Position numbers and translations under genes: made by a program | The notes under the pieces: generated by a model | What the model was told of the DNA's origin: nothing | The model's database searches: none | What the model saw: the letters and a program-made list of their open reading frames with translations, nothing else | Shown here: positions 44 to 17,802 of the stretch, in pieces | How the letters are laid out: every line of letters begins with the position of its first letter | Numbering within the stretch: the first letter of the stretch is position 1 | Assembly (NCBI GenBank): GCA_024639325.1 | Contig: JAHEIO010000018.1 | Location: forward strand, 21,928-57,453 | Reading direction: 5' to 3' | Length of the DNA stretch: 35,526 nucleotides | Origin: Gammaproteobacteria bacterium | GTDB taxonomy: Bacteria; Pseudomonadota; Gammaproteobacteria; Arenicellales; JAANXG01

Positions 44-1087
44 TTACTGCTTGTTCTGGAAATACCCGGTCAGTTTGGGCTCACTGCCGAAAATAGCGGG
101 CTGGCCACCGGTGTGTATGTACAACATCCGCCTGCCCTTGGCAGGCCTGGATGCGCGAGCGAATTGGAGCAATGCCGCCATGGATTTCGCGGTATAGGTC
201 GGGTCAACGATCAGACCCTCCTTGCGGGCCGCGAGATCCATCGCTTCCATTGTTGGTGGATTCGTCCGGCCATAACCAGGCGGCAGGAAGTCGTCGACCA
301 GTTTGACATCCGAATCTTCAACCGGTGATTCGACGCCGAGCAAACCGGCGATTGCCCCACAATGATGAACTATCCTGCTGCGCTGTGCCGCCGCATCCCG
401 GCGCACGCACACACCGGTTACGGACGCGGTGCTCCCCAATGCCTTTAAACCGAAAAGTAATCCCGCGTGCGTGTGGCCGCTTCCGGAAGCTACCACGATG
501 TCGTCGAATGCGAGACCGGCACGATCACTCTGCGCCAGGATTTCCTGAGCGCACATCACGTAGCCAAGCGAGCCGAGCGGCGGATGACCGGGTGCAAGCG
601 GTATGATGTAGGGTCGACGCCCCCGGCGCTTCAGTTCTTCCGCGATCTCTCCCAGACGCCTGTCCGCTCCGGTTTCGTCCTCGCCCTCGTCGAAATAGTG
701 AAGGTGCGCGCCGAGCATCCTGTCCAGAAGTACGTTGCCCGAGTTTCGGTACACCGCATCGACTCCGGGCACACGATCCTCCAACTGGATGTGACACGCC
801 ATGGACAGCTTGCACGCCGCGGCCGCCGCGAGCCTGACGAAATTCGACTGTACCGCACCCGTAATCAGTACCGTGTCCGCTTCACGCGACACCGCTTCTC
901 CCAGATAAAACTCCAACTGCCTGACCTTGTTCCCGCCAAACGCCAACCCGGTGCAGTCGTCGCGTTTGATATACAAATCGACGCCCCCACAGTGAGCCGA
1001 CAGGTTGCGCATTGGCTCTAGGGGGGTGGGTTTATGCGCGAGCTCTACGCGCGGCATTGACTCCAATCGACCCAGATTTTCAGACAT
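44..1087 (-). CDS. PLP-dependent D-cysteine desulfhydrase / L-cysteate sulfo-lyase-like enzyme
   Basis: A 347-residue fold-type II PLP enzyme of the ACC deaminase/D-cysteine desulfhydrase family. The PLP lysine is K54 in KRDDCTGLAFGGNK, and a phosphate-binding loop is seen at about 202-210 (SGSGHTHAG). Family members release ammonia and pyruvate from small amino acids; one branch (CuyA) releases sulfite from L-cysteate. The usual QSNH substrate-site motif reads QSNF here (80-83), and the usual GSGGT reads GSGHT, so the substrate may be unusual. The preceding gene encodes a TauE/TSUP exporter, a pairing also known for cuyA-cuyZ sulfite export, which favours a sulfur or sulfonate role. I chose the ATG at 1087, which gives an 8-base gap to the upstream gene. 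An ATG at 1108 would overlap that gene and adds seven residues. Last gene of the operon. Confidence 0.8.
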   Translation of the reverse strand: MSENLGRLESMPRVELAHKPTPLEPMRNLSAHCGGVDLYIKRDDCTGLAFGGNKVRQLEFYLGEAVSREADTVLITGAVQSNFVRLAAAAACKLSMACHIQLEDRVPGVDAVYRNSGNVLLDRMLGAHLHYFDEGEDETGADRRLGEIAEELKRRGRRPYIIPLAPGHPPLGSLGYVMCAQEILAQSDRAGLAFDDIVVASGSGHTHAGLLFGLKALGSTASVTGVCVRRDAAAQRSRIVHHCGAIAGLLGVESPVEDSDVKLVDDFLPPGYGRTNPPTMEAMDLAARKEGLIVDPTYTAKSMAALLQFARASRPAKGRRMLYIHTGGQPAIFGSEPKLTGYFQNKQ

Positions 1088-1095
1088 ATCTCTAT

Positions 1096-1854
1096 TTATC
1101 CCGTCCAATATTGTTTGGCCACATCAATCAATAAGAGTAAAGCGGTCGCTGCAAGGACAATGGTAATGATACTCTTGAACGCGCGTTCGCTGATTCTCGG
1201 TTCGAGAATTCTGCCCACCACCACACCCGCAATCGTGGCCGGCAGCAACTGCAGCGCCCAGCTGATTCCATCGTCGCCGATTCCCGGCGTGAACGACTGA
1301 AACGCGAGGGCGGCGGTATAGGACGGCACGAACATGGTGAGAATGGTTGCGCGGATGCGCGCTTTGGAAAAGCTCTGCGTAACCATCCAAGCCGCAGGTA
1401 CCGGACCCGGCATGCCGAGACTCGAACTCATTGCACCGGAGATCACGCCCATACCGGAGGCTATACGCGAGCTGTAAGCGGGTCCTTCACGCCTTGTGGT
1501 GCGCTCGAAGGCTCCGGCGACCGTCAGCGCCATAAACGCCACGGCCACACCGGCCAGCAGTTTCAGCATGACGATATCGATGCGGATGAATACCACGATA
1601 CCAAGCGGTAGGCCAACAAGCGTGCCCAAAAGAAACAGCTTCAACACCGGCCAGTCTGCCTGCCGAAACAAGGTAGGCGACAGCATCAGCGCGATGGCCA
1701 AGCTCAGCATGATCGACACCTGTATGGCGGAGGAGCTGTTGAGGGCGTAGAGCAGCACGGGTCCGGCAATGACGCCGAAACCGATGCCCGTCGCGCCCTG
1801 AAGTAACGAGGCAACCAGGACCGCTGCCTGCACGAGCCACCAGGTCGCATCCAT
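1096..1854 (-). CDS. TauE/SafE (TSUP) family membrane transporter
   Basis: About 252 residues, almost entirely hydrophobic, with roughly eight predicted membrane segments. An N-terminal GATGIGFG segment is typical of the TSUP/TauE family. These inner-membrane proteins export small anions, notably sulfite, sulfoacetate or other organosulfur compounds; some import thiosulfate or related anions. It is followed after 8 bases by the PLP desulfhydrase/sulfo-lyase-like gene, so a simple reading is that it exports the sulfite or sulfide released by that enzyme. I start at the ATG at 1854; a TTG lies one codon earlier and no strong ribosome site distinguishes them. Substrate is inference. Confidence 0.8.
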   Translation of the reverse strand: MDATWWLVQAAVLVASLLQGATGIGFGVIAGPVLLYALNSSSAIQVSIMLSLAIALMLSPTLFRQADWPVLKLFLLGTLVGLPLGIVVFIRIDIVMLKLLAGVAVAFMALTVAGAFERTTRREGPAYSSRIASGMGVISGAMSSSLGMPGPVPAAWMVTQSFSKARIRATILTMFVPSYTAALAFQSFTPGIGDDGISWALQLLPATIAGVVVGRILEPRISERAFKSIITIVLAATALLLLIDVAKQYWTG

Positions 1855-1903
1855 CAATCAGCTGGCGTACGCCCCGGAGCGATATACAGGCGGGATCGGT
1901 GGA

Positions 1904-2755
1904 TCAGGGCCGTGACGCCAATAATTCCCGGGCTCTCTTGTATACCGGTACGTCGATTACTTTGCCGTCCAGTGAGGTCGAACCCCGCCCCTTGCGTTCT
2001 GCTTCCTCGTACGCCGCAACGACGCGTGACGCGTAGTCTATCTCGTCCTTCGTCGGCGAGAACACCCGATTGATCGGATCCACCTGCGCGGGGTGGATGG
2101 CGAATTTACCCTTAAAGCCGATGTGCTTGGATGCGACCGCGTTTACTATCAGACCTTCCTTGTCCCGAAATTGGAAATAAGGGGTATCGAGAGCAAGCAC
2201 CCCTGCCGCCCTGGCGGCGATGCACAGGGTATTTCTGGCAAAGTCCACATTTCCGTCGCCTTCCAGCCTCTGGATGGCCATGTCATGGGTAAAGTCCTCG
2301 GCACCAAAAGCCACGGCCAAGATCCTCTCGCTGGCGCGGCATATCTCATAACAGTTCACTATTCCCAATGCGGTCTCGATCCACAGAACAAGCCCCAGTG
2401 TACCTGGACTCATTTCCTGCTTTCTCTCGAGTTCGGACAGGACGTCGCTGAGCCACAGGACGTCATCCGGCGTGTTTACCTTTCCAATCGACACCCCGCA
2501 AACTCCGGGGCGTACAACAGATTGCAGATCCTCTTCAGCCAACCCGGTGTCCCGTGCATTGATCCTGGGCAGGACCGGAATGCCGGTATTGATCAGAACG
2601 CCCATTTGTTCGCGAACCGTGCGCCTGGCTTCGGATTTGTCCGCGTCGGCCACCGAATCTTCCAGATCTGGAACGAACGCGTCGGGCCTGAAACCCGCCG
2701 CTTTCCCGATCATTCGGGGCTGATTTCCAGGAATGAAAAGAAGACTGCGATACAT
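1904..2755 (-). CDS. HpcH/HpaI-CitE family acyl-CoA lyase (malyl-/citramalyl-CoA lyase-like)
   Basis: A 283-residue TIM-barrel protein of the CitE/malyl-CoA lyase family, which cleaves or condenses beta-hydroxyacyl-CoA thioesters (for example malyl-CoA to acetyl-CoA plus glyoxylate, or citramalyl-CoA to acetyl-CoA plus pyruvate). Expected active-site features are present: VPDLEDSV near 28-35, the R64 region, E127 in WIETALGI, D154 in GAEDFTHDM, and GKFAIHPAQV late in the chain. E127 and D154 would hold Mg2+. No citrate lyase CitD or CitF gene is near, so it is probably a free-standing CoA lyase. A CoA-ligase pair that could make its substrate lies at 15679-17802. It starts 16 bases after the stress-protein gene. 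Exact substrate unknown. Confidence 0.8.
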   Translation of the reverse strand: MYRSLLFIPGNQPRMIGKAAGFRPDAFVPDLEDSVADADKSEARRTVREQMGVLINTGIPVLPRINARDTGLAEEDLQSVVRPGVCGVSIGKVNTPDDVLWLSDVLSELERKQEMSPGTLGLVLWIETALGIVNCYEICRASERILAVAFGAEDFTHDMAIQRLEGDGNVDFARNTLCIAARAAGVLALDTPYFQFRDKEGLIVNAVASKHIGFKGKFAIHPAQVDPINRVFSPTKDEIDYASRVVAAYEEAERKGRGSTSLDGKVIDVPVYKRARELLASRP

Positions 2756-2771
2756 GGATTCAACGGCGGGG

Positions 2772-3635
2772 TCAATGCACCATCAAGGTGACGACGTTAG
2801 AGTGAACCAACAGATACTGGGTGACACCGCCAAACACCAACTCCCGTGATCGCGCGTGGCTGAAACCGCCGACCACGAGCAGCTCGACTGAATTCTCCGC
2901 GCAGCAGTCCAGTATCGACTGCCCCACCGATTTGGTTTTCTTCGGGAGATAGTGCACTTTGATTTTAATGCCGTACAGGGCAAGGTATTCGGTAAGTTCA
3001 GGAAGACTGGCATTTCGCTTGTGCGACATGATAACGCTGACATCCTCCATCTGGTTCAACCAGGGCAGGGCCATTGCCAGTGCCCTGGAGGCCTCCAGGC
3101 TTTCATTCCATGCAAACGCTGCGCGTCCGACCTTGTGTGGGTTCCAGTCCGGCGGCACCATCAGGATAGGCCGACCGACGCGCATCAGCAGCGATTCCAT
3201 TCTTTCTCCAACGGGCGACCTCAGCAATATTCCTCTCCTGCGGGCCGGCCTGGCCGCGGCGATCACGTCGCAAAAGCGGCCGTGACGTATCAATATTTCC
3301 GCAACGCTCCCCGTCTCTTCCCGGAATACCGCCCTGACCTCGTCATCGCTCAGCGACTCACCGAATCTGATGCCATGTTTTTCGCAGTATTCGGTGAACT
3401 GATCGCGTAAGGCTCTTGCGTGTTCCTTGCCGATCTTTTTGGTTTCGTCGGCTACTTTTCTCTTCAGATTTTCGGATACGTAGTCGAGTTCGTAGGGCAG
3501 ATCGCCGCTCTTGGGCCGGATATGTATGCCCTTGATTTTTGCATTGAAGCGTTTGGCTACGATCAACGCCGTGTCCAGCACGGCGAAGCTGGCGTCGGTG
3601 CCGTCCAGGGGCACCAGAATAGACTTAACTGACAT
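2772..3635 (-). CDS. Universal stress protein, tandem UspA domains
   Basis: A 287-residue protein with two UspA-like folds. The first begins SVKSILVPLDGTDASFAVL; the second starts near residue 165 (HKVGRAAFAWNES) and ends in a segment containing VVGGFSHARSRELVFGG and TQYLLVHSNVVTLMVH, the C-terminal nucleotide-loop region of UspA proteins. Tandem forms act as ATP/AMP-binding stress or metabolic-state proteins in the cytoplasm. A good ribosome site (GGAG) precedes the ATG at 3635. It sits between fhs and the CitE-like lyase with gaps of 20 and 16 bases, so it is probably cotranscribed with the catabolic genes. Its role there is not evident from sequence. Confidence 0.87.
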   Translation of the reverse strand: MSVKSILVPLDGTDASFAVLDTALIVAKRFNAKIKGIHIRPKSGDLPYELDYVSENLKRKVADETKKIGKEHARALRDQFTEYCEKHGIRFGESLSDDEVRAVFREETGSVAEILIRHGRFCDVIAAARPARRRGILLRSPVGERMESLLMRVGRPILMVPPDWNPHKVGRAAFAWNESLEASRALAMALPWLNQMEDVSVIMSHKRNASLPELTEYLALYGIKIKVHYLPKKTKSVGQSILDCCAENSVELLVVGGFSHARSRELVFGGVTQYLLVHSNVVTLMVH

Positions 3636-3655: not shown

Positions 3656-5323
3656 CTAGAATAGACCTTCTACTTCGCCCGAATCATTGATAAGGATGCT
3701 GTTGGCGGCGGGGACCCTCGGCAATCCCGGCATGGTCATGATCTCACCGCAAATAACGACCATGAACCCGGCCCCGGCGGACAGCCTCACTTCCCGCACC
3801 GGCAGCACGTGCCCGGAGGGCGCCCCTTTGAGGTTGGGGTCGGTTGAAAAACTGTACTGCGTTTTCGCAATGCAGATCGGGAAGTGGCCGAAGCCGTTTT
3901 CCTGGTATTCGCTGATCTGGGATCGCACTTTCTTGTCGGCTATAACGTCATCCGCGCCATAGATGCGGGTCGCCACGGTTTTTATCTTGTCCCACAGCGG
4001 CATATCGTCGTCATAGATGGGAGCAAACTGGCTGTTGCCGCTGTCCGCGAGGTCGGCCACATGGACAGCGAGTTGCTCCGTACCGGCACCGCCGTTGGAC
4101 CAGTGCGTGCATTCGAAGGCTTCCGTGCCATAATCGGCGGCGGTCTCACGAACCGCGGCCACCTCAGCGTCCGTGTCGGCGACAAAGCGGTTGATAGCCA
4201 CCACCGTCGGCACGCCGAAGGATTTGACATTTCGGATGTGTCGCGCCAGGTTGGAACAGCCCTTTCTGACCGCTTCGACATTCTCGCTATTGAGGTTGTC
4301 CTTGCTTACCCCGCCGTGCATCTTCAAGGCTCGGATCGTGGCGACGATGACGGCGACATCCGGTTTGAGGCCCGCACTGCGGCACTTGATATCGAAAAAC
4401 TTCTCCGCCCCCAGGTCGGCGCCGAATCCCGCCTCGGTAACGACGTAGTCGGCGAGCTTCAGGGCCGCTTTGGTGGCGATTACTGAATTACAGCCGTGGG
4501 CGATGTTGGCAAACGGTCCACCATGGATGAAGGCAGGATTGTTTTCCAGCGTCTGCACCAGATTCGGCGCCATGGCGTCCTTCAGCAGTACGGCCATGGG
4601 GCCCGGTCCCTTGACCTGCTGCGCGCGAATTGGCTTGCGGTCCCGGGTGTAGCCGACGATGATTTTACTCAACCGTTCCTGCAGGTCGTCGAGATCACGG
4701 GAGAGGCAGAATATGGCCATTACCTCCGAGGCAACGGTGATATCGAATCCATCCTCGCGCGGGTAGCCGTTGGCCACACCGCCGAGGGAATTGACGATGG
4801 AACGAAGCGCCCGGTCGTTCATGTCGACGACTCTTCGCCATACGACACGTCTGCTGTCAAACCCCGCCTCGTTTCCCCAGTAGATGTGATTGTCCACCAG
4901 AGCGGACAACAGGTTGTGGGCGGCGCCGATGGCGTGGAAGTCGCCGGTGAAGTGAAGGTTGATCTCTTCCATCGGAACCACCTGCGCATAGCCCCCGCCG
5001 GCGGCGCCACCCTTCATACCGAAACAGGGTCCCAGGCTGGGTTCCCTCAGGCACACCAGAGACTTTTTTCCAATCCGGCTGAGGCCGTCGTGCAGCCCGA
5101 CCGATGTCGTGGTCTTGCCCTCCCCCGCGGGGGTTGGCGTGATCGCCGTCACCAGGATGAGTTTGCCTTCGGGTCTCCCCTCGAGCGATTTGATGAACTC
5201 CTGCGACAGTTTCGCTTTGCTGTTACCGTAAGGCTCGAGCGCGTCGGACGGAATGGCCAGTTTTTCGGCGACTTCTGTGATCGGCTGCGTGGTGGCAGCT
5301 CGGGCAATTTCGATATCGCTCAT
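3656..5323 (-). CDS. fhs: Formate-tetrahydrofolate ligase (10-formyl-THF synthetase)
   Basis: A 555-residue enzyme making 10-formyl-THF from formate, THF and ATP in the cytoplasm. The sequence is clearly of this family: the nucleotide loop [12 protein letters not shown] at 63-74, then [20 protein letters not shown] and [19 protein letters not shown]. Length matches the usual 555-560. A longer frame reaches 5374, but the extra 17 residues do not look like family sequence, so I start at the ATG at 5323. The neighbours are a formyl-THF hydrolase-like domain and a formyl-CoA transferase-like gene, so its likely job is to capture formate released from formyl-CoA. A 97-base gap separates it from the upstream gene; I see only a weak hairpin there (CGGTT/AACCG) and no recognisable riboswitch. 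Confidence 0.96.
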
Positions 5324-5420: not shown

Positions 5421-6329
5421 CTATCCAAACCGGTCACCGACGGACAAATTGCTTGACGCGGCATACTCGGTTGCCGACACCTTACCCGCATCGGCGCGAA
5501 CTCGCATCACCCGGATTGCACCCTGCGATGCGGCAACGGTAAAACTTTCGTCATCGATGGCAACGACTTCCCCAGGTTGCCCGCTATCCCCTGACAGCCG
5601 GGAGTCGTAGATTTTGACCTCAACGCCATCCCTTGTTGTCCAGGCACCGGGTTGCGGATTGGCGGCGCGGATAGTGTTGTATACCTCCTGCGCGCTCCCG
5701 GTCCAGTCGATCTCGGCCTGTTTTTTTCCGAACCAGGATTCATAGGACCCCTCGTCCAGATTTTGTTCGATCCTCGGGGCGTCGCCCCGTTTCACCCTCT
5801 CGAGGGACTCCATCATGGCATCCACTCCCATGGGGAAAAGTTTTTTGAAATACACGTCGCCCAGTGTCTCGTCCGGCCCGATGTCGCAAGTTTTCTGCAT
5901 CAGGATGGGTCCTTCGTCGAGACCGTCATTGGGCCAGAAAATGCTCAGTCCCGTGCGGGTCGAACCCATGGCGATGGGCCAGTTGATGGAAGACGGTCCC
6001 CGATGCATCGGCAGCAGCGACGGGTGATACTGGAATGATCCCAGCCTGGGCGCATTGATCACGGCATCCGGAACGAACAGCAGCACATAGGCCATCATGC
6101 ACACGTCCGCATCGAAGGACTTCATCAACTCAAGCGATTCGCCCGTCTTCCATGAAGCAGGCTGGTGTACCGGCAGACTGTGCTCCAGCGCCAGTTCCTT
6201 CAGCGGATCGACGGGCCTGCCTTCCTTGTCGGGCGCAACACAAACCGCGACGACGTTTTCACCCTGTTCCAGCAGCCGTTCCAGAACGGCTCGTCCGAAG
6301 GCCTGTTGACCATGGACAACAATACGCAT
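5421..6329 (-). CDS. Free-standing 10-formyl-THF hydrolase/formyltransferase domain (ALDH1L1 N-terminal type)
   Basis: A 302-residue protein matching the N-terminal hydrolase half of animal 10-formyltetrahydrofolate dehydrogenase from end to end, including YHPSLLPMHRG at 101-111 and an SINWPI segment near 114-119. The catalytic pair falls at H102 and D138 (in NDGLDEGPIL), matching the H106 and D142 known for rat FDH. The C-terminal OB-like subdomain (NPQPGAWTTRDG and onward) is also present. There is no aldehyde dehydrogenase half. Known relatives bind 10-formyl-THF and either transfer or hydrolyse the formyl group. It is unlikely to be the housekeeping Fmt given its operon position between frc-like and fhs. 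A strong ribosome site (GGAGGT) precedes the ATG at 6329. Direct acyl transfer to or from formyl-CoA is an untested possibility. Confidence 0.85.
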   Translation of the reverse strand: MRIVVHGQQAFGRAVLERLLEQGENVVAVCVAPDKEGRPVDPLKELALEHSLPVHQPASWKTGESLELMKSFDADVCMMAYVLLFVPDAVINAPRLGSFQYHPSLLPMHRGPSSINWPIAMGSTRTGLSIFWPNDGLDEGPILMQKTCDIGPDETLGDVYFKKLFPMGVDAMMESLERVKRGDAPRIEQNLDEGSYESWFGKKQAEIDWTGSAQEVYNTIRAANPQPGAWTTRDGVEVKIYDSRLSGDSGQPGEVVAIDDESFTVAASQGAIRVMRVRADAGKVSATEYAASSNLSVGDRFG

Positions 6330-6354: not shown

Positions 6355-7602
6355 CTAAACCGCGCCGGATTGCCTGATTTCGGAAATTTCGTCGTCCGAG
6401 TAGTGCAACACTTGCGAAAGAATTTCATCGGTGTGTTCCCCAAGCAGCGGCGAACGCGTCACCTGTGCCGGCGAATCAGACAATTTGACTGGACAGCCGA
6501 CCGTAAGATATTTGCCGCGCCCGGGATGATCCACTTCAACTATCGTCCCCGTCTCGCGCAGCGACGGCTCCTCGGCGAGCTCTTTCATTGACAGGATCGG
6601 CCCCACGGGTATGTCGAGGGGATTGCAGATTTCCATGACCTCGTACTTGGTTTTAGTCATGGTCCACTGCTCGATCGCATCGAACACGTCGTTGAGGTGC
6701 GGCAGCCTCGCCGCGGGTGTGGCGAAGTCCGGCGCTTCCCTCCATTCGGGCTTGCCGATGACGTCGCAGATCTTGCCCCATACCGCCGCCTGGGTAATGA
6801 AATAAGTGTATGCGTTGGGGTCGGATTCCCATCCCCTGCACTTCAGTATCCGGCCCGGCTGGCCGCCGCCCGAATCGTTCCCCGCCCGCGGCGTGGCCTC
6901 GCCAAACGGAACGCCCTCCCCGTACTGGGAATACTCTTTCAGCGGTCCGTGGTCAAGCCGCTGCTGGTCTCGAAGTTTGACGCGACAGAGGTTGAGCACC
7001 CCGTCCTGCATGGCGGCGAGCACCCTCTGACCCCGGCCGGTCTTTTCACGTTGAAACAGCGCGGTTACGATCCCCAGGGCCAGATTCAATCCCGTACCGG
7101 AGTCGCCGATCTGCGAACCCGTGACCAGCGGCGGTCCGTCGCGAAATCCGGTAGTCGATGCCGAACCCCCGGCGCACTGCGCGACATTCTCGTATACCTT
7201 GCAGTCCTCGTAGGGCCCCGGTCCAAAGCCCTTTACCGAGGCCATGATCATACGCGGATTGAGTTCCTGGATCCTGTCCCATGAAAAGCCCATGCGGTCG
7301 AGGGCTCCCGGAGCAAAATTTTCCACCAGCACGTCGCATTCCTTGACCAGCCGTTCGAGCACCTTTTTGCCGGTGTCGTTTTTTGAGTTGAGCGTCAGCG
7401 AACGTTTATTGTGATTGAGCATGGTGAAGTACAGGGAGTCCTCGCCTTCTACATCCACCAGCTGTTTGCGGGTCGCGTCGCCGCTACCCGGGCGTTCCAC
7501 CTTGATCACATCCGCCCCGAACCAACCCAGCAGTTGTGTGCACGTCGGACCCGATTGGACGTGTGTAAAGTCAAGGATCCTTACCCCTTCAAGCGCCTTC
7601 AT
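6355..7602 (-). CDS. frc: Family III CoA-transferase, formyl-CoA:oxalate CoA-transferase-like
   Basis: A 415-residue family III CoA-transferase that closely resembles Oxalobacter Frc along its length: [21 protein letters not shown] near 10-30, [31 protein letters not shown] and the glycine loop SGGGQPG. The catalytic aspartate is D167 in [10 protein letters not shown], equivalent to Asp169 of Oxalobacter Frc. Known members move CoA from formyl-CoA (or succinyl-CoA) to oxalate in the cytoplasm. Next to a ThDP lyase and fhs, it most likely regenerates an acyl-CoA from formyl-CoA and releases formate. The family also has many members for other acids, so oxalate specificity is likely but not proven. 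I start at the ATG at 7602; a TTG at 7611 is closer to the GGAGA and is an alternative. Confidence 0.83.
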
Positions 7603-7676
7603 TACTGTCAATATCTCCGAATTAAATTGAATCTATCAGCCCACGGGTGACAAAGCGGTTTATGGAAGCCGTTGGT

Positions 7677-9425
7677 TTACTTGTACATGGTCTGGGCCTT
7701 CGTACCCGGCGCGTATTCGTTCGGATCGACCCAGACATTGACGACCGCGCACTTCCCCGTGCGGGCAATTGCTTCGCGGGCGCGCTGCAGCGCGGGTTGA
7801 ATCTCCTTCGCCTCATGAACCTCTTCGCCGTAGCCGCCGATCATCTCTCCGAACTTGCTGAAGGGCACGTCGCCCAGTTTGTTGCCGACGTTGCCCCGCT
7901 CTTCACCGTACTTTGCAATCTGACCGTAGCGAATCTGATTCATGTGAGAATTGTTCCCGATCACCGCCAGGTAGGGCGCACCGAACCTCTGCGCCGTTTC
8001 CATATCGAACGCGGTCATCCCAAACGAACCGTCGCCGTACAGACACATGACCTCCTTGTCGGGATGAACAAGTTTCGCGGCCATCGCAAATCCCGTGCCT
8101 ACACCGAGCGACCCCAGGGCGCCGGGATCCATCCATTGCCCCGGATTTCTCGGTCGCACGGCCTGCGCCGAAATCGTCACGATGTCGCCGCCGTCACCTA
8201 TATAGATCGTGTCCTCCCCGAGGAACTCATTGATCTCCCAGGCCAGACGATACGGATGGATGGGATTCTGATCGGTGTTGAACATGGGCAGCAGTTTTTC
8301 GAGCTTGGTTGCCTCGATGTCACGCAACTGCTTCATCCACGCCTGCCGCGCCTTGCGCGCGCCGTCATCGATGCGGCCCGAAGCGGCCTGTGCGACCGCG
8401 GAGAGAATGGCTCCCGGATGGCCTGCGAGACCCAGACTGATATCACGGTTTTTGCCAACCGTGGCGTAGCTCAGATCGATCTGAACCAGCGTCGCCTCGT
8501 CTGAAATCCGCTTGCCGTAACCCATCCGAAAATCAAACGGCGTCCCGACGATCAGTATCACGTCTGCATTCTTGAACGCGTCGCTGCGCGTGCGGTCGAA
8601 ATGGTGCGGATCACCCTGCGGCAGCATGCCGCGGCTTGCGCCGTTGAGGTAGACGGGAATATCCAGAGCACGGACGAAGCTGATTGCCTCTTCGTGACCC
8701 CGGCAGGCCCATACCTGCTGCCCAATGAGGACCGCTGGGCGTTCTGATTTGACCAGAATGTCCGCCAACCTTTCGATATCTGCGGGATCGCCGATGGAAC
8801 GAACGGAGCTGCGATACGCACCGTGCCTCGGGATTCTGGCGGATTCGAGAGGAATTTCGCGATCCAGGATATCCCGCGGAATCTCCAGATACGAGGGTCC
8901 ATAGGCGCCGTTGAAACACTCCCTTGCCGCCATGGCGATCATATCGGCGACCCGTTCCGTGGAATACACGCCCGATGAGAATTTGGTAATGGGCGCCATC
9001 ATGTCCACGTGGGGCAGGTCCTGCAGGGAACCCATCTTGTGCTGGGTCAGTGAACTCTGGCCGCCAATGTGCAGCACCGGACTTTCCGACCGGAATGCTG
9101 TAGCGATACCCGTTACCGCGTTTGTGCAGCCCGGTCCGGCGGTGGTAACGACGCAGCCGAGCCTGCCCGTCTGTCTCGCGTATCCATCCGCGGCGTGGGC
9201 CGCCACCTGCTCGTGCCGGACATCGACGATGCGGATACCCTCATCGAGGCAGCCGTCGTAGATATCGATGATATGACCTCCGCACAGTGTAAATATCGTG
9301 TCCACGCCCTCATTCTTTAGCGCCCTTGCAACCAGGTGGCCGCCCGACACGATGCCTTCATCTCGACTTTTCTGCGCCAGCGTATCGGTGGCCGTATCGG
9401 ACAATTTCATTGCTTGCGTTGACAT
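7677..9425 (-). CDS. ThDP-dependent 2-hydroxyacyl-CoA lyase / oxalyl-CoA decarboxylase-like (acetolactate-synthase superfamily)
   Basis: A 582-residue three-domain ThDP enzyme. The catalytic glutamate is E72 in DVRHEQVAAHAADGYAR, and the ThDP/Mg motif runs from GDGSFG (464) to NN (491-492). Having E72 rules out a glyoxylate carboligase. The frame extends to 9503, but the ATG at 9425 has a very strong ribosome site (GGAGAGAGGAGAA) and avoids overlap with the regulator gene, so I use it. Beside an Frc-like gene the expected job is cleavage of oxalyl-CoA or a 2-hydroxyacyl-CoA to formyl-CoA. However, the ThDP motif is closer to acetolactate synthase/ILVBL (HACL2) proteins than to the GDSAFGFSG and GIYxG form of classical oxalyl-CoA decarboxylase. 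The C-terminus ends in a lysine-containing tail (APGTKAQTMYK) after the last domain. Substrate unresolved. Confidence 0.8.
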   Translation of the reverse strand: MSTQAMKLSDTATDTLAQKSRDEGIVSGGHLVARALKNEGVDTIFTLCGGHIIDIYDGCLDEGIRIVDVRHEQVAAHAADGYARQTGRLGCVVTTAGPGCTNAVTGIATAFRSESPVLHIGGQSSLTQHKMGSLQDLPHVDMMAPITKFSSGVYSTERVADMIAMAARECFNGAYGPSYLEIPRDILDREIPLESARIPRHGAYRSSVRSIGDPADIERLADILVKSERPAVLIGQQVWACRGHEEAISFVRALDIPVYLNGASRGMLPQGDPHHFDRTRSDAFKNADVILIVGTPFDFRMGYGKRISDEATLVQIDLSYATVGKNRDISLGLAGHPGAILSAVAQAASGRIDDGARKARQAWMKQLRDIEATKLEKLLPMFNTDQNPIHPYRLAWEINEFLGEDTIYIGDGGDIVTISAQAVRPRNPGQWMDPGALGSLGVGTGFAMAAKLVHPDKEVMCLYGDGSFGMTAFDMETAQRFGAPYLAVIGNNSHMNQIRYGQIAKYGEERGNVGNKLGDVPFSKFGEMIGGYGEEVHEAKEIQPALQRAREAIARTGKCAVVNVWVDPNEYAPGTKAQTMYK

Positions 9426-9471
9426 GTCGTTCTCCTCTCTCCTGCTTTCGATCTTTTGCACATCACTGGCG

Positions 9472-10161
9472 TCATGTGAGGTAGTCGACGTAATGTCGGA
9501 CATGCTCAGCCAGATTGAGAGCGTGGTCCCGGACCAGTTTTTCCACTAGTTCGGTCTGTCTTTTCTCCAGTGCTTCTATAATGCGCGTGTGATCAATGAT
9601 TGACTGCGATGCCCGATCACGCTCCTTGATCGTGCGGGCCCGAATGGATTTCATATGAATAAATAAATTATCGGTCAGAGCTATCAGCAGGCGAGATTTG
9701 CTGAGTTTGATGATGTTCTGGTGAAACCTGATGTTGGTCTCGGAGTATTCGTCGATTTGTCCGCGCGCTTCGGAAGAATCACTGTATGAATCCAGAAAGC
9801 CGTGAAATTCGCGAATCTCTTCATTCGTAGCGTTGAGCGTCGCCAGTCTGGCGGCCATGCTCTCCAGCGCAGCCCATACATGAATCATTTCAAGGATATC
9901 CGCCTTGCTTTTTCGCACTACGAAAGCACCCCGCCGGGGCACGGTCTGGACGAGCCCTTCCTGCTCCAGGCGCGACAACGCCTCCCTGACCGGCGTCCTG
10001 CTTACCCCCAGCTTGTCGGCCAGGGAACGCTCGTCGAGGCGCGGCGGTTCGGCGTCCGTATAAATATCCATCTCAGCGATGGCATCTTTCAGCGCGACAT
10101 AGACCTTGTCTTTGAGAACAAAGTTCGCCGCCAGCGGTGTCAGGGGTAATGAAGAGCGCAC
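9472..10161 (-). CDS. GntR-family regulator, FadR/FCD subfamily
   Basis: A 229-residue regulator. The N-terminal winged helix-turn-helix covers about 42-80 (DERSLADKLGVSRTPVREALSRLEQEGLV, continuing to PRRGAFV). An all-helical FCD ligand domain follows, with the metal/ligand pattern (ETNIRFHQNI and DHTRIIEALEKR, then DHALNLAEHV). FCD regulators bind small carboxylates and usually repress the operon they sit in. It begins with GTG at 10161 behind AGGA; the next in-frame ATG is inside the DNA-binding domain. Placed between the transporter and the catabolic genes, it probably senses the imported acid or its CoA product. Candidate operators are listed at 13366 and 18814. Confidence 0.92.
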   Translation of the reverse strand: MRSSLPLTPLAANFVLKDKVYVALKDAIAEMDIYTDAEPPRLDERSLADKLGVSRTPVREALSRLEQEGLVQTVPRRGAFVVRKSKADILEMIHVWAALESMAARLATLNATNEEIREFHGFLDSYSDSSEARGQIDEYSETNIRFHQNIIKLSKSRLLIALTDNLFIHMKSIRARTIKERDRASQSIIDHTRIIEALEKRQTELVEKLVRDHALNLAEHVRHYVDYLT

Positions 10162-10181: not shown

Positions 10182-11717
10182 CTAAGATTCATCCGCTTCC
10201 GGTCCATCATCCGCCGCGGCAGATTTTTTCTTGTGTTTCGTCATCTTTATCACCGGCAAAACAATCAACAGAACCGCCAGCACGAGGATGATGGCCGACA
10301 GCGGGCGTTCGACGAAGGTGGCTACGTTACCCTGCTCCGCGACCAGGCTTTGACGCAGAGCCCGCTCCGTCAGCGGACCCAGTACGATTGCCAGTACGGC
10401 TGGCGCGACCGGGTAGTTCAGTTTGCGCAGCAGGTAGAACACGACGCCGAATATGACAATCAGCCAGACATCGTGCAGATCCTGGGTCGGCGCGTAGCCC
10501 CCGACGATGCAGAGCACGAATATGATGGGCGCTAGGATCGTAAATGACAGCTTGAGAACCGACACGAAAAGCGGGATGAAGGCGATGTTGATGATCACGG
10601 TGAATAAATTGGCCATGTACAGGCTGCCGATCAGACCCCACACAAATTCCGGATGGTTGACAAACAGGAGCGGGCCCGGCCGCAGCCCCCAGATGATCAT
10701 CCCGCCCAGCAGAATTGCCGTGGTGGGTGAACCCGGAATGCCTAGAGTGATCATGGGCAGCATGGAACCGGTACTGGCGGCGTTGTTCGCCGTTTCCGGA
10801 GCGGCCACGCCGGTGATGTTGCCTTTGCCAAAACTATCCGGATCCTTGGACATGGTCTTGGCCACGCCGTATGCCATCAGGGATGCGGGGGTTGCTCCGG
10901 CCGCGGGCAGGATGCCGACGAAATAACCCAGAAACGAAGAACTGATGATCGACACGGTCGAACTTTTCAAACGCTTGAAAGCATCGAGTATTCTCGACGC
11001 CGTAAACGAGGCCTGTGAAACCCTCACGTCGCCCTGACTGGTTTCCAGGGTCCACAATATTTCGCCGATGCCGTATATGCCTATAGCCAGAACCAGAAAG
11101 TTGATGCCGTGGTAGAACCCCGGAATATCGAAGAAGATCAATCGGGGCTGACCGGAGATTTCATCCAGCCCGACCGCCGCGAACACCAGTCCCAAGGCGA
11201 TCGAAAAGATCGTCTTCGGGATGTCGTCTCCACCGAGACCGATGAAGGTGGCGAAGGCGAGCATCATCAGGGCAAATTCTTCCTGCGGTCCGAATTTAAG
11301 CGCAAAATCGGCCAGCGGGGGTGCGAACAGCGTGAACAGAATCACCGATATCGTGCCGCCGACGAAGGAACCGACCGCCGCCGCGACGAGCGCCCAGTCC
11401 GCTTTGCCCTGCATGGCCAGCGGACGGCCGTCGAATACCGTGGCTACGGCTGTCGACGCCCCGGGTATGCCCAGCATGATTGAACTGATTGCCCCGCCGT
11501 ACATGGCGCCGTAGTAGACCGCGGCCAGAAAGATGATCGCACCGGTGGGGGGCACCAGAAAAGTAACGGGCAGAAGGATTGCCACACCGTTGACCGAACC
11601 CAGCCCGGGCATGGCACCGACGAACAGCCCGATCACGCAGCCCAGCATCATCAACAAGAGGTTCTGTGGGGTTACCGCGGTCGCGAAACCCTGCATCAGG
11701 GCGTCAAATATTTCCAC
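10182..11717 (-). CDS. tctA: Tripartite tricarboxylate transporter, large membrane subunit TctA
   Basis: A 511-residue, twelve-segment membrane protein of the TctA family. It carries the family marker GAMPGLGSVNGVAILLP near 34-50 and a second internal copy, GILPAAGATPASLMAYG, followed by a stretch ending MLPMITLGIPGSPTTAILLGG. TctA forms the conducting part of a binding-protein-dependent secondary transporter that uses ion gradients to take up citrate, tartrate, tricarballylate or other carboxylates. It begins with GTG at 11717, 36 bases after tctB, and ends 20 bases before the GntR gene. The C-terminus is charged (KKKSAAADDGPEADES). Substrate cannot be told from sequence. Confidence 0.95.
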   Translation of the reverse strand: MEIFDALMQGFATAVTPQNLLLMMLGCVIGLFVGAMPGLGSVNGVAILLPVTFLVPPTGAIIFLAAVYYGAMYGGAISSIMLGIPGASTAVATVFDGRPLAMQGKADWALVAAAVGSFVGGTISVILFTLFAPPLADFALKFGPQEEFALMMLAFATFIGLGGDDIPKTIFSIALGLVFAAVGLDEISGQPRLIFFDIPGFYHGINFLVLAIGIYGIGEILWTLETSQGDVRVSQASFTASRILDAFKRLKSSTVSIISSSFLGYFVGILPAAGATPASLMAYGVAKTMSKDPDSFGKGNITGVAAPETANNAASTGSMLPMITLGIPGSPTTAILLGGMIIWGLRPGPLLFVNHPEFVWGLIGSLYMANLFTVIINIAFIPLFVSVLKLSFTILAPIIFVLCIVGGYAPTQDLHDVWLIVIFGVVFYLLRKLNYPVAPAVLAIVLGPLTERALRQSLVAEQGNVATFVERPLSAIILVLAVLLIVLPVIKMTKHKKKSAAADDGPEADES

Positions 11718-11753
11718 GGTGTCGTCTCATCGGCATTGTTAGTTGGTTGCCGG

Positions 11754-12257
11754 TCAGTAGATTATGCGATAGAGCGGATAAAACAAGGGTTCGGAATATC
11801 CCTTCGGCAAAAGAATCTTGAGCAGCGCCTCAAAAAAGAAAAACAAAAATATCGGGGTAGCGACGGACAGGGTCCCGGTCAACAACCAGGAGTGACGCCC
11901 GACAAATCGGATGTAAAAGAGCAAGAACAAAAATATGGCGAAGTAAATACCGATGACGTGAGTCAAACCCAACAGTGCAACGAGTGAACCGACCGTGATG
12001 AAGTTGATCCGCCGGGTGTTCCTATCCATGAACTCGACATCGGAGCGGGATTGGGGTGTCGCTCGCCGCCACCACCTGTAGACCGTGACCAGGCAGCACA
12101 GCAGCATCACCGCGGACAGCCAGAACGGCCATGCGCCGCCGCCCGGGCCTCGATCCGGTATCCAGCCGATTTCGAGCTCGGTGCTCTTCCACATCAGACC
12201 GACTGAAAGCAGCCCCATGAGTATCGCCATCAGCAATTCCGCCGTGCGAGTCGTCAT
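11754..12257 (-). CDS. tctB: Tripartite tricarboxylate transporter, small membrane subunit TctB
   Basis: A 167-residue protein with four hydrophobic segments and the TctB-like segment WIPDRGPGGGAWPFWLSAVML near 32-52. It is the small membrane partner of TctA. The ATG at 12257 follows a good ribosome site (AGGAGG). It lies between tctC (65 bases upstream) and tctA (36 bases downstream), the standard CBA order of this transporter class. Sequence conservation in TctB is poor, so the call relies partly on position. Confidence 0.9.
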   Translation of the reverse strand: MTTRTAELLMAILMGLLSVGLMWKSTELEIGWIPDRGPGGGAWPFWLSAVMLLCCLVTVYRWWRRATPQSRSDVEFMDRNTRRINFITVGSLVALLGLTHVIGIYFAIFLFLLFYIRFVGRHSWLLTGTLSVATPIFLFFFFEALLKILLPKGYSEPLFYPLYRIIY

Positions 12258-12322
12258 GAGGCCGCCTCCTGAACGTTCTGATTGAACACGTCGCGCGTGT
12301 CTTTCTCAGGTGATGCGAGTGG

Positions 12323-13312
12323 CTACTGAATCAGGCCCATGCCCTTGAGCAGCTCCTCGTGCTTGGCTTTCTCCGCGGTGTGATAAGCAGCGAGGTCTTC
12401 GCCAGCCAGCCACTCGTCACAGAAAATACCGTCGCTGGCGCAGAAGTCCTGCCAGTCCTTGGAATCGAACACCTGCTTGAACAGGTCGATGTAATAGGCC
12501 TGGGCGTCGGCCGACATCCCCGGAGGCGCGTTGATGCTGCGCTGCATGAAGTAAACCAGGTCCGGGTGACCGGCTTCGCCAGACGTCGGCACGTCCGGGA
12601 ACTGCTTCAGGCGATCCGGTGTAAATGCGACCAGCGGACGCGATTTGCCGGCCTCGAAGAAACCCAGCTGCTCCGACGGGTTGTTGACCGTGGAATCGAT
12701 GTGCTTCCCAATCAGGTTCTTGGCCACCGTGCCGCCACCCGGGAAGGGTACGTAGGTCACTTCGAATCCAAACTTGTTCTGCAGCATCCCGGTGAGCAGG
12801 GAGTCTTCCTGCCCCTGTCCGGTACCGCCCATCTTCCAGTCTTTGTTCTTTTCCTTCACCGTCATCACGTAGTCATCGAGCGACATGATGTCCGAATCGG
12901 AACTCACCCAGAGCAGGAAAGTATCCAGGGCCATGCGGCCTATCGGTGTAAAGGTGCTGATGTCCACACCCAGGCCAGGGTTCTGGAGCGGCGTAGTGTA
13001 GAAGCTGTTGAGAGTGATCATGACAATATGATCGTCGCCGCTTTTGTCCTGGAGATAGCGCAAAGCTTCCGCACCGGAGCCGCCGGGCTTGTTTATGGGA
13101 ATGAAAGGCTGATTGGAAAAATCGTTCTTTTGAATGATGCTTTGCATCAGCCGCGCCATCTGGTCTGCGCCGCCGCCCGTTCCGGCCATGATGATGAACT
13201 CGACCGGCTTTTTCGGCTCCCATGCAAATGCCGAACCGGCCGTTACAGCCAGTGAACACAGGGCGACCATAGGCAGAAGCACAAGTCTTCTTAAAATACT
13301 TGGTTTCGTCAT
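12323..13312 (-). CDS. tctC: Periplasmic solute-binding protein TctC (Bug family)
   Basis: A 329-residue binding protein with a Sec signal peptide: positive start (MTKPSILRRL), hydrophobic core, and a likely cleavage after SAFA at about residue 30. The mature part has Bug-fold features, VEFIIMAGTGGGADQMARLM and INKPGGSGAEALRYL, where the loops hold the carboxylate ligand. It captures substrate in the periplasm and delivers it to TctAB. A strong ribosome site (GGAGGAATCA) precedes the ATG at 13312. It is the first gene of the long minus-strand operon, so the promoter and main regulatory site should lie just upstream. Confidence 0.94.
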   Translation of the reverse strand: MTKPSILRRLVLLPMVALCSLAVTAGSAFAWEPKKPVEFIIMAGTGGGADQMARLMQSIIQKNDFSNQPFIPINKPGGSGAEALRYLQDKSGDDHIVMITLNSFYTTPLQNPGLGVDISTFTPIGRMALDTFLLWVSSDSDIMSLDDYVMTVKEKNKDWKMGGTGQGQEDSLLTGMLQNKFGFEVTYVPFPGGGTVAKNLIGKHIDSTVNNPSEQLGFFEAGKSRPLVAFTPDRLKQFPDVPTSGEAGHPDLVYFMQRSINAPPGMSADAQAYYIDLFKQVFDSKDWQDFCASDGIFCDEWLAGEDLAAYHTAEKAKHEELLKGMGLIQ

Positions 13313-14450: not shown

Positions 14451-14577
14451 ATCAAGATGGATCCCGGGTATAGACGCAGGTGCAAGGTCAATTCGGGTTG
14501 AACAGCCGCGTATGATTTCAATGACGACTGGCCGAATAGCCGTTTTCAAACGGTAAAAATTATAGGGAGTGTATGAG

Positions 14578-15594
14578 ATGAAAATTTGTGTTGTCGGTGC
14601 CGGCTCCATTGGTGGGCTGCTGGGTGTGAAACTGTACAATCTTGGCGAAAAGGTCACGCTTATCGCGCGCGGGCCGCATCTCGAAGCGATCAGGAGCGAC
14701 GGCCTGAAGCTGCTCATGAGTGACGGCACTTTAGAGGTGGCACGGGGGATCCATGCAACCGACGACATGACCACGCTGGGGCCGCAGGATCTCGTCATAC
14801 TGGGCGTGAAAGCACACCAGATCGAGTCCATCGTTGATGACGTCGCGGGTCTGCTCGGTCCAGACAGCGTCCTTTTGACCACGCAGAACGGAATACCGTG
14901 GTGGTATTTTCAGAAACACGGCGGGAAGTACGAGGGTACGCCGGTCCGTTCGGTCGATCCGGACGGGCGGATCGCCGGTGGTATAAATCCGGACCACATT
15001 ATCGGCTGCATCGCTTACCCCGCAGCCGAAATTACCCAACCCGGCACGATCCATCACGTCGAGGGTATCCGATTCCCCATAGGCGAACTCGACGGCAGCG
15101 AATCCCTCCGCGCTCGGGAGATATCCGACCTTCTCACCCGCGCCGGATTCAAGTCTCCGATTCTTGCGGACTTCCGGTCCGAACTGTGGCTGAAACTCTG
15201 GGGCAACCTGACTTTCAACCCGATCAGCGCATTGACCCACTCCACGCTGGTAGACATTTGCCGCTACCCCTTGTCCCGGCGGCTTGCCGAACGGATGATG
15301 TCGGAGGCGCAGGACGTGGCGCACAATCTCGGGATCACCTTCCGTGTCTCTCTGGAGAAGCGAATACAGGGAGCGGAAAAGGTTGGTAAACACAAGACCT
15401 CCATGCTGCAGGACGTGGAATCGGGCAAAGCCATGGAAATCGATGCGTTGATCGGGGCCATTGCCGAACTCGGTGAATTAACGGGGACTCCGACACCGTC
15501 CATTGACGCCGTCTATGCGCTGATCAAGCTGCTGGACAAGACCGTCCAGGAAGAAGGCCTGTTCGTGAAAGGGCAACCCGTGAACCAAAGGTGA
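14578..15594 (+). CDS. Ketopantoate reductase (PanE/ApbA) family dehydrogenase
   Basis: A 338-residue NAD(P)H-dependent reductase of the 2-dehydropantoate 2-reductase family. The Rossmann motif is GAGSIG at 7-12. NGI appears at 104-106, and the catalytic lysine is likely K206 in ELWLKLWGNLTFNP. The C-terminal substrate domain contains KHKTSMLQDVESGKAMEIDAL. It is longer than typical PanE (about 300), and its genomic setting with CoA and FAH enzymes suggests a catabolic 2-oxo-acid reductase rather than pantothenate synthesis, though that cannot be excluded. I start at the ATG at 14578, which has GGGAG eight bases upstream; a GTG at 14569 overlaps that ribosome site. Confidence 0.82.
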   Translation: MKICVVGAGSIGGLLGVKLYNLGEKVTLIARGPHLEAIRSDGLKLLMSDGTLEVARGIHATDDMTTLGPQDLVILGVKAHQIESIVDDVAGLLGPDSVLLTTQNGIPWWYFQKHGGKYEGTPVRSVDPDGRIAGGINPDHIIGCIAYPAAEITQPGTIHHVEGIRFPIGELDGSESLRAREISDLLTRAGFKSPILADFRSELWLKLWGNLTFNPISALTHSTLVDICRYPLSRRLAERMMSEAQDVAHNLGITFRVSLEKRIQGAEKVGKHKTSMLQDVESGKAMEIDALIGAIAELGELTGTPTPSIDAVYALIKLLDKTVQEEGLFVKGQPVNQR

Positions 15595-15678: not shown

Positions 15679-16554
15679 CTATCGAGAAAGTGCCTTTGCC
15701 ATGGTCGAGCCGATGTTTATCGGTGAATCGGCGATATGGATGCCGCAACTGGCCAGCACCTCCAGTTTCTCATCGGCGGCGCCGGTGCCGTGCTGGACGA
15801 TTGCCCCCGCGTGGCCCATTCTGCGGCCGGGCGGGGCAAACCGTCCCGCCACATAGGCGACGATGGGTTTGGCGGGCTTGCTGGTCCGGACATAATCTGC
15901 CGCATCTTCCTCCTCGGAGCCCCCGATCTCTCCGATCAGCACCACGCCCTCCGTTTCCGGGTCCCGCATGAACAACTCCAGGCAGTCGGCAAAGCTCAGG
16001 CCGTGGACCGGGTCGGCGCCGACACCGATACAGGTGGACTGACCCAGGTCATGGGCCGTGGTTTGCGCCACGGCTTCGTAGGTCAACGTGCCGGTGCGGG
16101 AGAGAATTCCGATCTTGCCCCGTTGAAAGATCTCCTGAGGCATGATGCCGATACAGCATTCGCCCGGCGTAATGATACCTGGAGAGTTCGGACCGATCAG
16201 TCGCGAAGACGAGTTTTCCAGAGCGCGCTTGACCCCGACCATATCCAGGACGGGGATCCGTTCCGTCACGCAAACGATCAATCCGATACCCGCATCGATG
16301 GCTTCATGTATTGCCGTAGCCGCCTGGGCGCGCGGTACGAATATGACCGAAGCGTCGGCACCGGTACGGGACACGGCCTCGTCCATGCTATCGAACACCG
16401 GGAGGCCCAGGTGCTTCTTGCCCCCTTTACCCGGTCGGACCCCGCCAACCATTTGGGTCCCGCCCGACAATGCCTGCTCGGTGAAAAACGTGCCCTGCTT
16501 GCCCGTAATCCCCTGACAGATCACCCTGGTATTCTTGTCGACCAATACCGCCAT
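15679..16554 (-). CDS. Succinyl/malyl-CoA synthetase alpha-subunit-like protein (SucD/MtkB-like)
   Basis: A 291-residue CoA-ligase alpha subunit, close to SucD over its whole length. It has the CoA-binding [18 protein letters not shown] near 37-54, and the phosphohistidine H248 in [10 protein letters not shown]. The usual GPNCPG reads GPNSPG (S124). The reaction is ATP- or GTP-driven CoA activation of a dicarboxylate, with the beta subunit encoded immediately upstream (gap 6 bases). It is in an accessory operon rather than with TCA genes, and a CitE/malyl-CoA lyase-like gene is encoded nearby, so malate or another hydroxy-dicarboxylate is a reasonable substrate guess. Ordinary succinate activation remains possible. 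Confidence 0.83.
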
Positions 16555-16560
16555 GACCGG

Positions 16561-17802
16561 CTACCGCTGCGAACCCATAACGCGTTCCCACCACTTCCGT
16601 CGCACCGCGGTCTCCCGTTTCCGGGCCGATCGAACCGCCTTGTCGGCGGCGTCCGCAAGATTGTCGGCGAAGGTCAACGCCGGACCCATGTCCTGCAGCC
16701 GCCTTTTAGCGAAATTTGCATTCGTGCCGGCAAGCCGGACCACCAGGGGCGTCTCGACACGGCTATCACGATTGACCATGATCAGGGCATCGGCGATGGT
16801 GTCACACCGCATAATACCCCCGCCGAAAACGTTCACCAGGACACTGTCCACACCCGGATCTGACAACACCAGCTTGAATGCCTGCCTGACCCGCTCTACC
16901 TCGGCCACTGGCGGTACGTCCAGAAAATTCGCCGGCTCGCCACCGATCAGCTTGATGGCGTCCAGGGTGGCGAGGCTCAGGCCGGCACCGCTGGTGAGAC
17001 AGCCGATGTTTCCGTCCAGTTTGATGTAGTTCAGCCCGTGTTGCGCCGCTTCGAGTTCACCAACCTGCAGCTCCGACGGATCGCGTAATTTTTCCATATC
17101 CGCGTGACGGAATAGCGCATTGTCGTCCAGGGTAATGGTCGCATCGAGGGCGACCACATTTTGACCAACGTCAACAGCCAGGGGATTGATCTCGATCAGC
17201 GACGCATCCTTGGAAGTGAAAAAGTCAAACATAGCGCGCAGAATCCTGTCGAGTACGCCGGCCTGTTCGCCGTCAAGCGAAAGCTGATCTACAATTCTGG
17301 CCAGTCCATCCTGGCTGATGCCCTGCGGAATATCCAGAGGAAGTTTGAGGATCAAATCAGGACTGACCGATTCAACCTTTTCCCCGCCCGCTGCGGAGGC
17401 GATGATCGCCAGCCGACTCGTCTGTCTGTCAATCAGCATGGCGAGATAGAGCTCACGCTGTAAATCGCCGGCGTATTGTTCCACGTATACACGATGGACG
17501 ACCCGTCCCGTCGGGCCCGTCTGCGGTGTAACGAGCACACGATGGAGCATTTCCTGAGCGGCCTCTCGAACCTCATCGACGGATTTCGCTACACGCACGC
17601 CGCCCTGGTCGGTGCGGGCATTCTCGAACTTTCCTAAAAAGCGGCCGCCGGCATGTATCTGCGCCTTGACGACCCAACGGCCGGCATCGAGTTTTCGAGC
17701 AACTTCCGCGGCGTCGTCCGCCGACGAGGCAACACCGCCGGCAAGCACTGGAATACCGATGCTTTTAAAGATCTGCTTGGCCTGGTATTCATGTATGTGC
17801 AT
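16561..17802 (-). CDS. Divergent succinyl/malyl-CoA synthetase beta-subunit-like protein (SucC/MtkA-like)
   Basis: A 413-residue beta subunit, longer than SucC (about 388) because of a basic C-terminal tail (RKRETAVRRKWWERVMGSQR). The ATP-grasp domain begins MHIHEYQAKQIFKSIGIPV, with KAQIHAGGR near 46-54 and EINPLAV at 204-210. The ligase domain differs from SucC and MtkA in two places: the glycine run of FLDVGGGA reads FLDVPPVA (293-300), and the NIFGGI loop has one extra glycine (FGGGIM, 326-331). These lie in the part that contacts the CoA/dicarboxylate site in known structures, so the acid may not be succinate. Its stop and start positions put it 3 bases after the QOR gene and 6 before the alpha subunit. 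Confidence 0.82.
   Translation of the reverse strand: MHIHEYQAKQIFKSIGIPVLAGGVASSADDAAEVARKLDAGRWVVKAQIHAGGRFLGKFENARTDQGGVRVAKSVDEVREAAQEMLHRVLVTPQTGPTGRVVHRVYVEQYAGDLQRELYLAMLIDRQTSRLAIIASAAGGEKVESVSPDLILKLPLDIPQGISQDGLARIVDQLSLDGEQAGVLDRILRAMFDFFTSKDASLIEINPLAVDVGQNVVALDATITLDDNALFRHADMEKLRDPSELQVGELEAAQHGLNYIKLDGNIGCLTSGAGLSLATLDAIKLIGGEPANFLDVPPVAEVERVRQAFKLVLSDPGVDSVLVNVFGGGIMRCDTIADALIMVNRDSRVETPLVVRLAGTNANFAKRRLQDMGPALTFADNLADAADKAVRSARKRETAVRRKWWERVMGSQR

Follow-up and report, generated by a model that had tools for sequence, protein, structure and literature searches.

In ALDH1L1, the N-terminal domain strips the formyl group from 10-formyl-THF, and the thiol arm of 4'-phosphopantetheine carries it (PMC8748788). 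The isolated hydrolase domain has been studied with mercaptoethanol, the thiol being proposed to attack the formyl group; moreover, ALDH1L1 hydrolases have Ile104 where the transferases have a catalytic Asn, and the I104N variant is left with less than 10% of the hydrolase activity (PMC4388273). For HypX, formyl transfer from 10-formyl-THF to CoA was proposed from the structure, without a direct assay (PMC6802093). This was the sole related proposal in our literature search, which covered subscription journals thinly and returned neither a formyl-CoA:THF formyltransferase nor a protein of the present kind in oxalate operons. The accessible portions of the accounts of published oxc-frc modules (C. 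necator oxc-frc, E. coli YfdE) mention no such gene beside them.

The protein described here, FT, is the 302-residue product (ATG start) of the ORF at 5421–6329 on the minus strand of the window, i.e., the whole 35,526-nucleotide stretch of gammaproteobacterial DNA that was analysed. Formyl_trans_N and Formyl_trans_C are its sole Pfam domains; Pfam found neither an ACP/carrier nor an aldehyde dehydrogenase domain, and the protein ends after Formyl_trans_C. The top solved relatives are the ALDH1L1 hydrolase domains (4qpd, 193 bits, E 5.7e-56), with the Met-tRNA formyltransferases (FMTs) behind at 146 bits. FT shares about 39% identity with zebrafish ALDH1L1 and 27–33% with FMTs from related genomes. 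The HxSLLP motif (HPSLLP, as in ALDH1L1), the catalytic His and Asp, and the equivalents of Ser108 and Tyr200 are all present; H102, S104, D138 and Y196 (H106, S108, D142 and Y200 in ALDH1L1) are invariant in 63 orthologues. The Pfam domains, the PDB matches and this alignment confirmed the view of an earlier note on this DNA that FT is a free-standing ALDH1L1-type domain with H102 and D138 intact and no dehydrogenase half. Residue 100, which corresponds to Ile104 of ALDH1L1 and to the Asn of the transferases, is Gln in 58 of the 63 proteins, including that of the window, and Cys in five divergent ones; FT therefore lacks the Ile by which the ALDH1L1 family is recognised. We also observed two divergent FT copies around fhs in a single operon of one genome, G023, in the order Frc-FT-Fhs-FT (L052, 2626–3540 and 5484–6431). 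The copies differ at the residue two places ahead of the catalytic His, with Cys in the upstream one and Gln in the downstream one.

The AlphaFold2 model of FT (pLDDT 96) has an intact formyltransferase fold. It matched FMT (Z 35.8), the ALDH1L1 hydrolase domain (4qpd, 1s3i, 2bw0; Z 34.6, 2.0 Å over 290 residues), ArnA (Z 33.4) and, more loosely, the N-terminal domain of HypX/HoxX (6j1f; Z 22.6, about 21% identity), so that the predicted fold alone would not permit a choice among the four. The differences lie elsewhere. Unlike ALDH1L1, FT has Gln for Ile104, stands without the carrier and dehydrogenase domains and is encoded beside oxalate enzymes. HypX belongs to the same fold family and has a proposed reaction of 10-formyl-THF with CoA to give formyl-CoA, but it holds CoA in a C-terminal enoyl-CoA hydratase-like fusion, its triad is modified (Asp80), and its role is in the maturation of hydrogenases. 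Fmt shares the two-domain Formyl_trans_N/C architecture, whereas FT scores below the fmt cut-off and has no Asn before HxSLLP, and a separate methionyl-tRNA formyltransferase-like gene is found elsewhere in the genome of the window (G000:C281). By its sequence, FT would be a variant of the ALDH1L1-type formyltransferase. A branching of ALDH1L1 inside the FT diversity was set aside, as it rests on two partial animal sequences and a long branch.

The minus-strand order in the window is tctC-tctB-tctA-gntR-ThDP enzyme-frc-FT-fhs-usp-HpcH/HpaI-tauE-PALP. FT starts 25 nt past frc, with an AGGAGG Shine-Dalgarno sequence, and fhs, the next gene on its strand, begins 97 nt after it. The frc product (6355–7611, minus strand) was assigned as formyl-CoA:oxalate CoA-transferase (Frc) by TIGR03253 (699 bits, cut-off 504). 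The ThDP enzyme (7677–9503, minus strand) was placed in the 2-hydroxyacyl-CoA lyase/oxalyl-CoA decarboxylase group from its PDB match, the oxc model and synteny; its ORF start overlaps gntR, so that translation probably begins at an internal codon. Its best PDB match was a 2-hydroxyacyl-CoA lyase (265 bits), and the oxc model gave 227 bits, under the cut-off of 557. Canonical OXC has Glu121 at the position where AcHACL has Gln (Q128) (PMC13327070), and in our reading of the alignment the window enzyme keeps the HACL-type Gln. With either activity, HACL-like or OXC, formyl-CoA is the expected product; oxalyl-CoA and glycolyl-CoA are among the candidate substrates.

The fhs gene (3656–5323, minus strand) encodes formate-THF ligase (Pfam FTHFS, 890 bits); its ORF runs from 5374, and the ATG at 5323 is the likely start. 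On the same strand lie a GntR/FCD regulator (9472–10161; Pfam), whose gene directly precedes that of the ThDP enzyme in many FT loci, the tripartite tricarboxylate transporter tctC-tctB-tctA (10182–13312; Pfam TctA and TctC, synteny), a candidate substrate uptake system, and a universal stress protein gene, usp (2772–3635; Pfam, synteny), often found after fhs in FT operons. Promoter and terminator scans of the operon returned no more sites than shuffled sequence did. No carrier domain was found by Pfam in the window proteins scanned, and a carrier-protein partner for FT was accordingly rejected. A ketopantoate-reductase-like protein (14569–15594, plus strand) is a candidate CoA-acylating glyoxylate dehydrogenase or oxalyl-CoA reductase, by analogy with ApbA2/PanE2 (PMC7486775). 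Near the operon there are also genes for an HpcH/HpaI protein of the CitE/malyl-CoA lyase type (1904–2755, minus strand; Pfam) and for the alpha and beta subunits of a succinate/malate-CoA ligase-like enzyme (15679–17802, minus strand), and a plasmid version of the operon has PEP carboxylase and sucCD genes nearby (L133, 1–3046); these neighbours suggest serine-cycle carbon assimilation from oxalate. The operon ends (44–1857, minus strand) with a TauE-type sulfite exporter and a PALP enzyme that resembles the D-cysteate sulfo-lyase CuyA but scores 357 bits, under the 450-bit cut-off. These two genes, which a second genome of the genus (L042) also has, may form a sulfonate branch.

Orthologues of FT occur in more than 90 loci, which rules out chance. 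We scored 78 loci, from public genomes of Gamma- and Alphaproteobacteria and some Binatia; these were the best matches, with close relatives over-represented and ORFs crudely called. Frc is immediately upstream of FT in 62 of the 78, and a ThDP enzyme lies at most three genes upstream in 58. The order ThDP enzyme-Frc-FT recurs among the genomes of relatives, with fhs adjoining FT in some only. In the scored set, fhs is immediately downstream in 39 of the 50 Frc-FT loci in which a downstream gene was called. The recurrent partners are the oxc-type, frc, fhs, usp and tripartite tricarboxylate transporter (TTT) genes, and FT is genomically linked to enzymes that produce or consume formyl-CoA. In four loci (L036, L048, L049 and L050) a ThDP-FT pair stands without adjacent Frc, which is encoded elsewhere in those genomes. 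As in the described oxc-frc modules, Frc in FT operons scores above the equivalog cut-off, and a canonical OXC is often present. None of this association with oxalate operons figured in the earlier note.

The slot upstream of Frc is filled by two different ThDP enzymes, a canonical oxalyl-CoA decarboxylase or a 2-hydroxyacyl-CoA-lyase-like one. In many alphaproteobacterial loci the slot enzyme is only ~24% identical to that of the window, while Frc is near 80% identical; the two such enzymes scored (in L055 and on plasmid CP031587) are canonical oxalyl-CoA decarboxylases, at 997 and 937 bits against a cut-off of 739. This exchange beside a nearly constant Frc argues, without proving it, for oxalate as a substrate of the window operon as well. 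The Paracoccaceae plasmid CP031587 carries gntR-oxc-frc-fmt_2(FT)-fhs_2-usp-TTT, with PEP carboxylase and a sucCD-type ligase nearby. Its FT (L133, 8001–8918; LA6_005544) is labelled methionyl-tRNA formyltransferase (fmt_2), probably a misannotation, and FT is usually mislabelled as a tRNA-formylating protein. Next to FT in L049 we also found a Pfam-confirmed gene for AceK, the isocitrate dehydrogenase kinase/phosphatase (7841–9613), with similar ORFs in L036, L040, L048, L050 and L051, which suggests a link to glyoxylate-bypass control.

In terms of gene content, FT follows formyl-CoA metabolism, and fhs often accompanies FT but is dispensable, as seen from the co-occurrence of Frc and from fhs-less genomes with oxc-frc-FT. 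Among 60 relatives, Frc was present in 19 of 20 FT genomes and in 15 of 40 FT-less ones (Fisher p = 1.7e-5), and the corresponding counts for fhs were 19 of 20 and 31 of 40 (p = 0.14); in a phylum sample of 299 genomes, Frc was found in all six FT genomes besides that of the window, compared with 21 of 298 overall (p = 6e-8), all these tests counting related genomes as independent and FT-positive genomes being few. The genus-level version, which avoids that dependence, gave Frc in 4 of 4 FT genera and in 11 of 153 (p = 1.5e-5). Even where FT lies outside a recognisable oxalate or Frc neighbourhood (11 genomes), Frc is encoded elsewhere in nine, and fhs in all 11. In one genus, three genomes with a completeness rating of 100% (two of them single contigs, the third in ~20 contigs) carry OXC-Frc-Frc-FT but have no fhs. 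A strict pairing of FT with fhs, which is widespread anyway, was rejected on these grounds. The futile pair with Fhs that the earlier note had raised fares poorly for similar reasons: fhs adjoins FT in part of the loci, its co-occurrence is at p = 0.14, and three FT genomes are without it. The alternative offered there, formyl transfer between formyl-CoA and THF, has become a candidate supported by context, as FT stands beside a formyl-CoA-making enzyme and Frc, and Frc co-occurs with it even when unlinked.

With moderate confidence, we propose that FT is a reversible 10-formyl-THF:CoA formyltransferase of oxalate (formyl-CoA-forming) operons, built on the ALDH1L1-type fold and catalysing formyl-CoA + THF ↔ 10-formyl-THF + CoA. 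CoA ends in a pantetheine thiol, the same as that of 4'-phosphopantetheine. THF would be bound as in ALDH1L1, and H102, itself holding D138, would orient the formyl oxygen, with Q100 assisting like the Asn of the transferases. CoA or formyl-CoA would be the thiol partner, the CoA thiol standing in for the phosphopantetheine (or mercaptoethanol) of ALDH1L1. We favour this reaction because of the conserved gene context and the co-occurrence with Frc, because Q100 is an amide, like the transferase Asn, and because of the thiol chemistry of ALDH1L1 and HypX. The Cys at position 100 of the five divergent FTs counts against it.

The main rival, to which we assign a rather low probability, is that FT is a 10-formyl-THF hydrolase that frees THF in place of PurU. 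Formate from oxalate would, via Fhs, trap folate as 10-formyl-THF, and FT with Fhs would form a regulated cycle, which accords with the fhs gene so often following Frc-FT. The closest solved relatives of FT are hydrolase domains with the same H/S/D set and Tyr200. Among the relatives, moreover, none of the 20 FT genomes has PurU, against 12 of the 40 FT-less ones (p = 0.005), although PurU is phylogenetically clustered, mainly in two families, and most FT-less genomes lack it too; the absence would suit a hydrolase and to that extent counts against a CoA formyltransferase. FT itself is not PurU-like, an identity rejected since the NCBIfam profile search listed no match to TIGR00655. Nevertheless, a hydrolase agrees poorly with the persistence of oxc-frc-FT in the three complete fhs-less genomes and with the tracking of Frc, not fhs. 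Ile104, needed for full hydrolase activity in ALDH1L1, is replaced by Gln; moreover, a thiol is the proposed attacking group in the isolated ALDH1L1 domain, and for a free-standing enzyme CoA could be that thiol.

It is improbable, more so than hydrolysis, that FT formylates some other acceptor made in these operons (an amine, sugar nucleotide, amino acid or protein). The fold is common to ArnA and the sugar N-formyltransferases, but no sugar or amine biosynthesis gene recurs beside FT. Some FTs outside oxalate operons do follow a pterin-4a-carbinolamine dehydratase gene (L120, 6562–6894; L124, 5369–5701; also L121 and L131; Pfam-confirmed in L120), which would be compatible with another acceptor. 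The CP031587 annotation, by which FT would be a second methionyl-tRNA formyltransferase, is very improbable. TIGR00460 (fmt) is the top NCBIfam match and FMT structures superpose with a Z of about 35; that match, however, scores 150 bits where the cut-off is 201.5, the Asn of FMT is Gln, the genome has its other FMT-like gene, and the operon context is of another kind. We rejected this identity on the score, the motif and the separate gene.

The direction of the proposed CoA formyltransferase reaction may depend on the state of the CoA-ester pool. Since a formyl thioester lies higher in energy than 10-formyl-THF, folate loading from formyl-CoA should be downhill, and in an excess of formyl-CoA, FT would load folate without ATP. 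The Frc/OXC cycle only recycles the CoA-ester pool, and any drain must therefore be refilled; possible drains are FT itself, to folate, and the reduction of oxalyl-CoA to glyoxylate by a PanE-like enzyme, maybe that at 14569–15594. A drain of formyl-CoA to THF would starve Frc unless the pool is refilled; it therefore offers no obvious gain in energy, which counts against the proposal. Under a drain of oxalyl-CoA to glyoxylate, FT could work in reverse; together with Fhs it would then serve as a formyl-CoA synthetase, refilling the pool needed by Frc at a cost of one ATP. Folate loading is the better match for the genomes without fhs, and the common order oxc-frc-FT-fhs is compatible with both directions.

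FT is real and conserved and, in the searchable literature, apparently undescribed. The balance tips slightly towards the wider view that an undescribed 10-formyl-THF:CoA formyltransferase is common in proteobacterial oxalate operons, where it would join oxalate-derived formyl-CoA directly to the folate pool and could, together with Fhs, form a THF-mediated formyl-CoA synthetase that primes Frc. The bookkeeping of oxalotrophy has two gaps, the entry of formyl-CoA into one-carbon metabolism and the refilling of CoA esters when oxalyl-CoA is drained for assimilation; if the proposal is true, a stand-alone formyl-CoA/10-formyl-THF enzyme fills both. With FT, the step postulated for HypX and ALDH1L1 could then be tested in a simple system, synthetic formate and formyl-CoA pathways would gain a useful component, and the misannotation as Met-tRNA formyltransferase would be corrected. 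The probable movement of formyl groups between CoA and folate by FT would tie oxalate breakdown to one-carbon metabolism.
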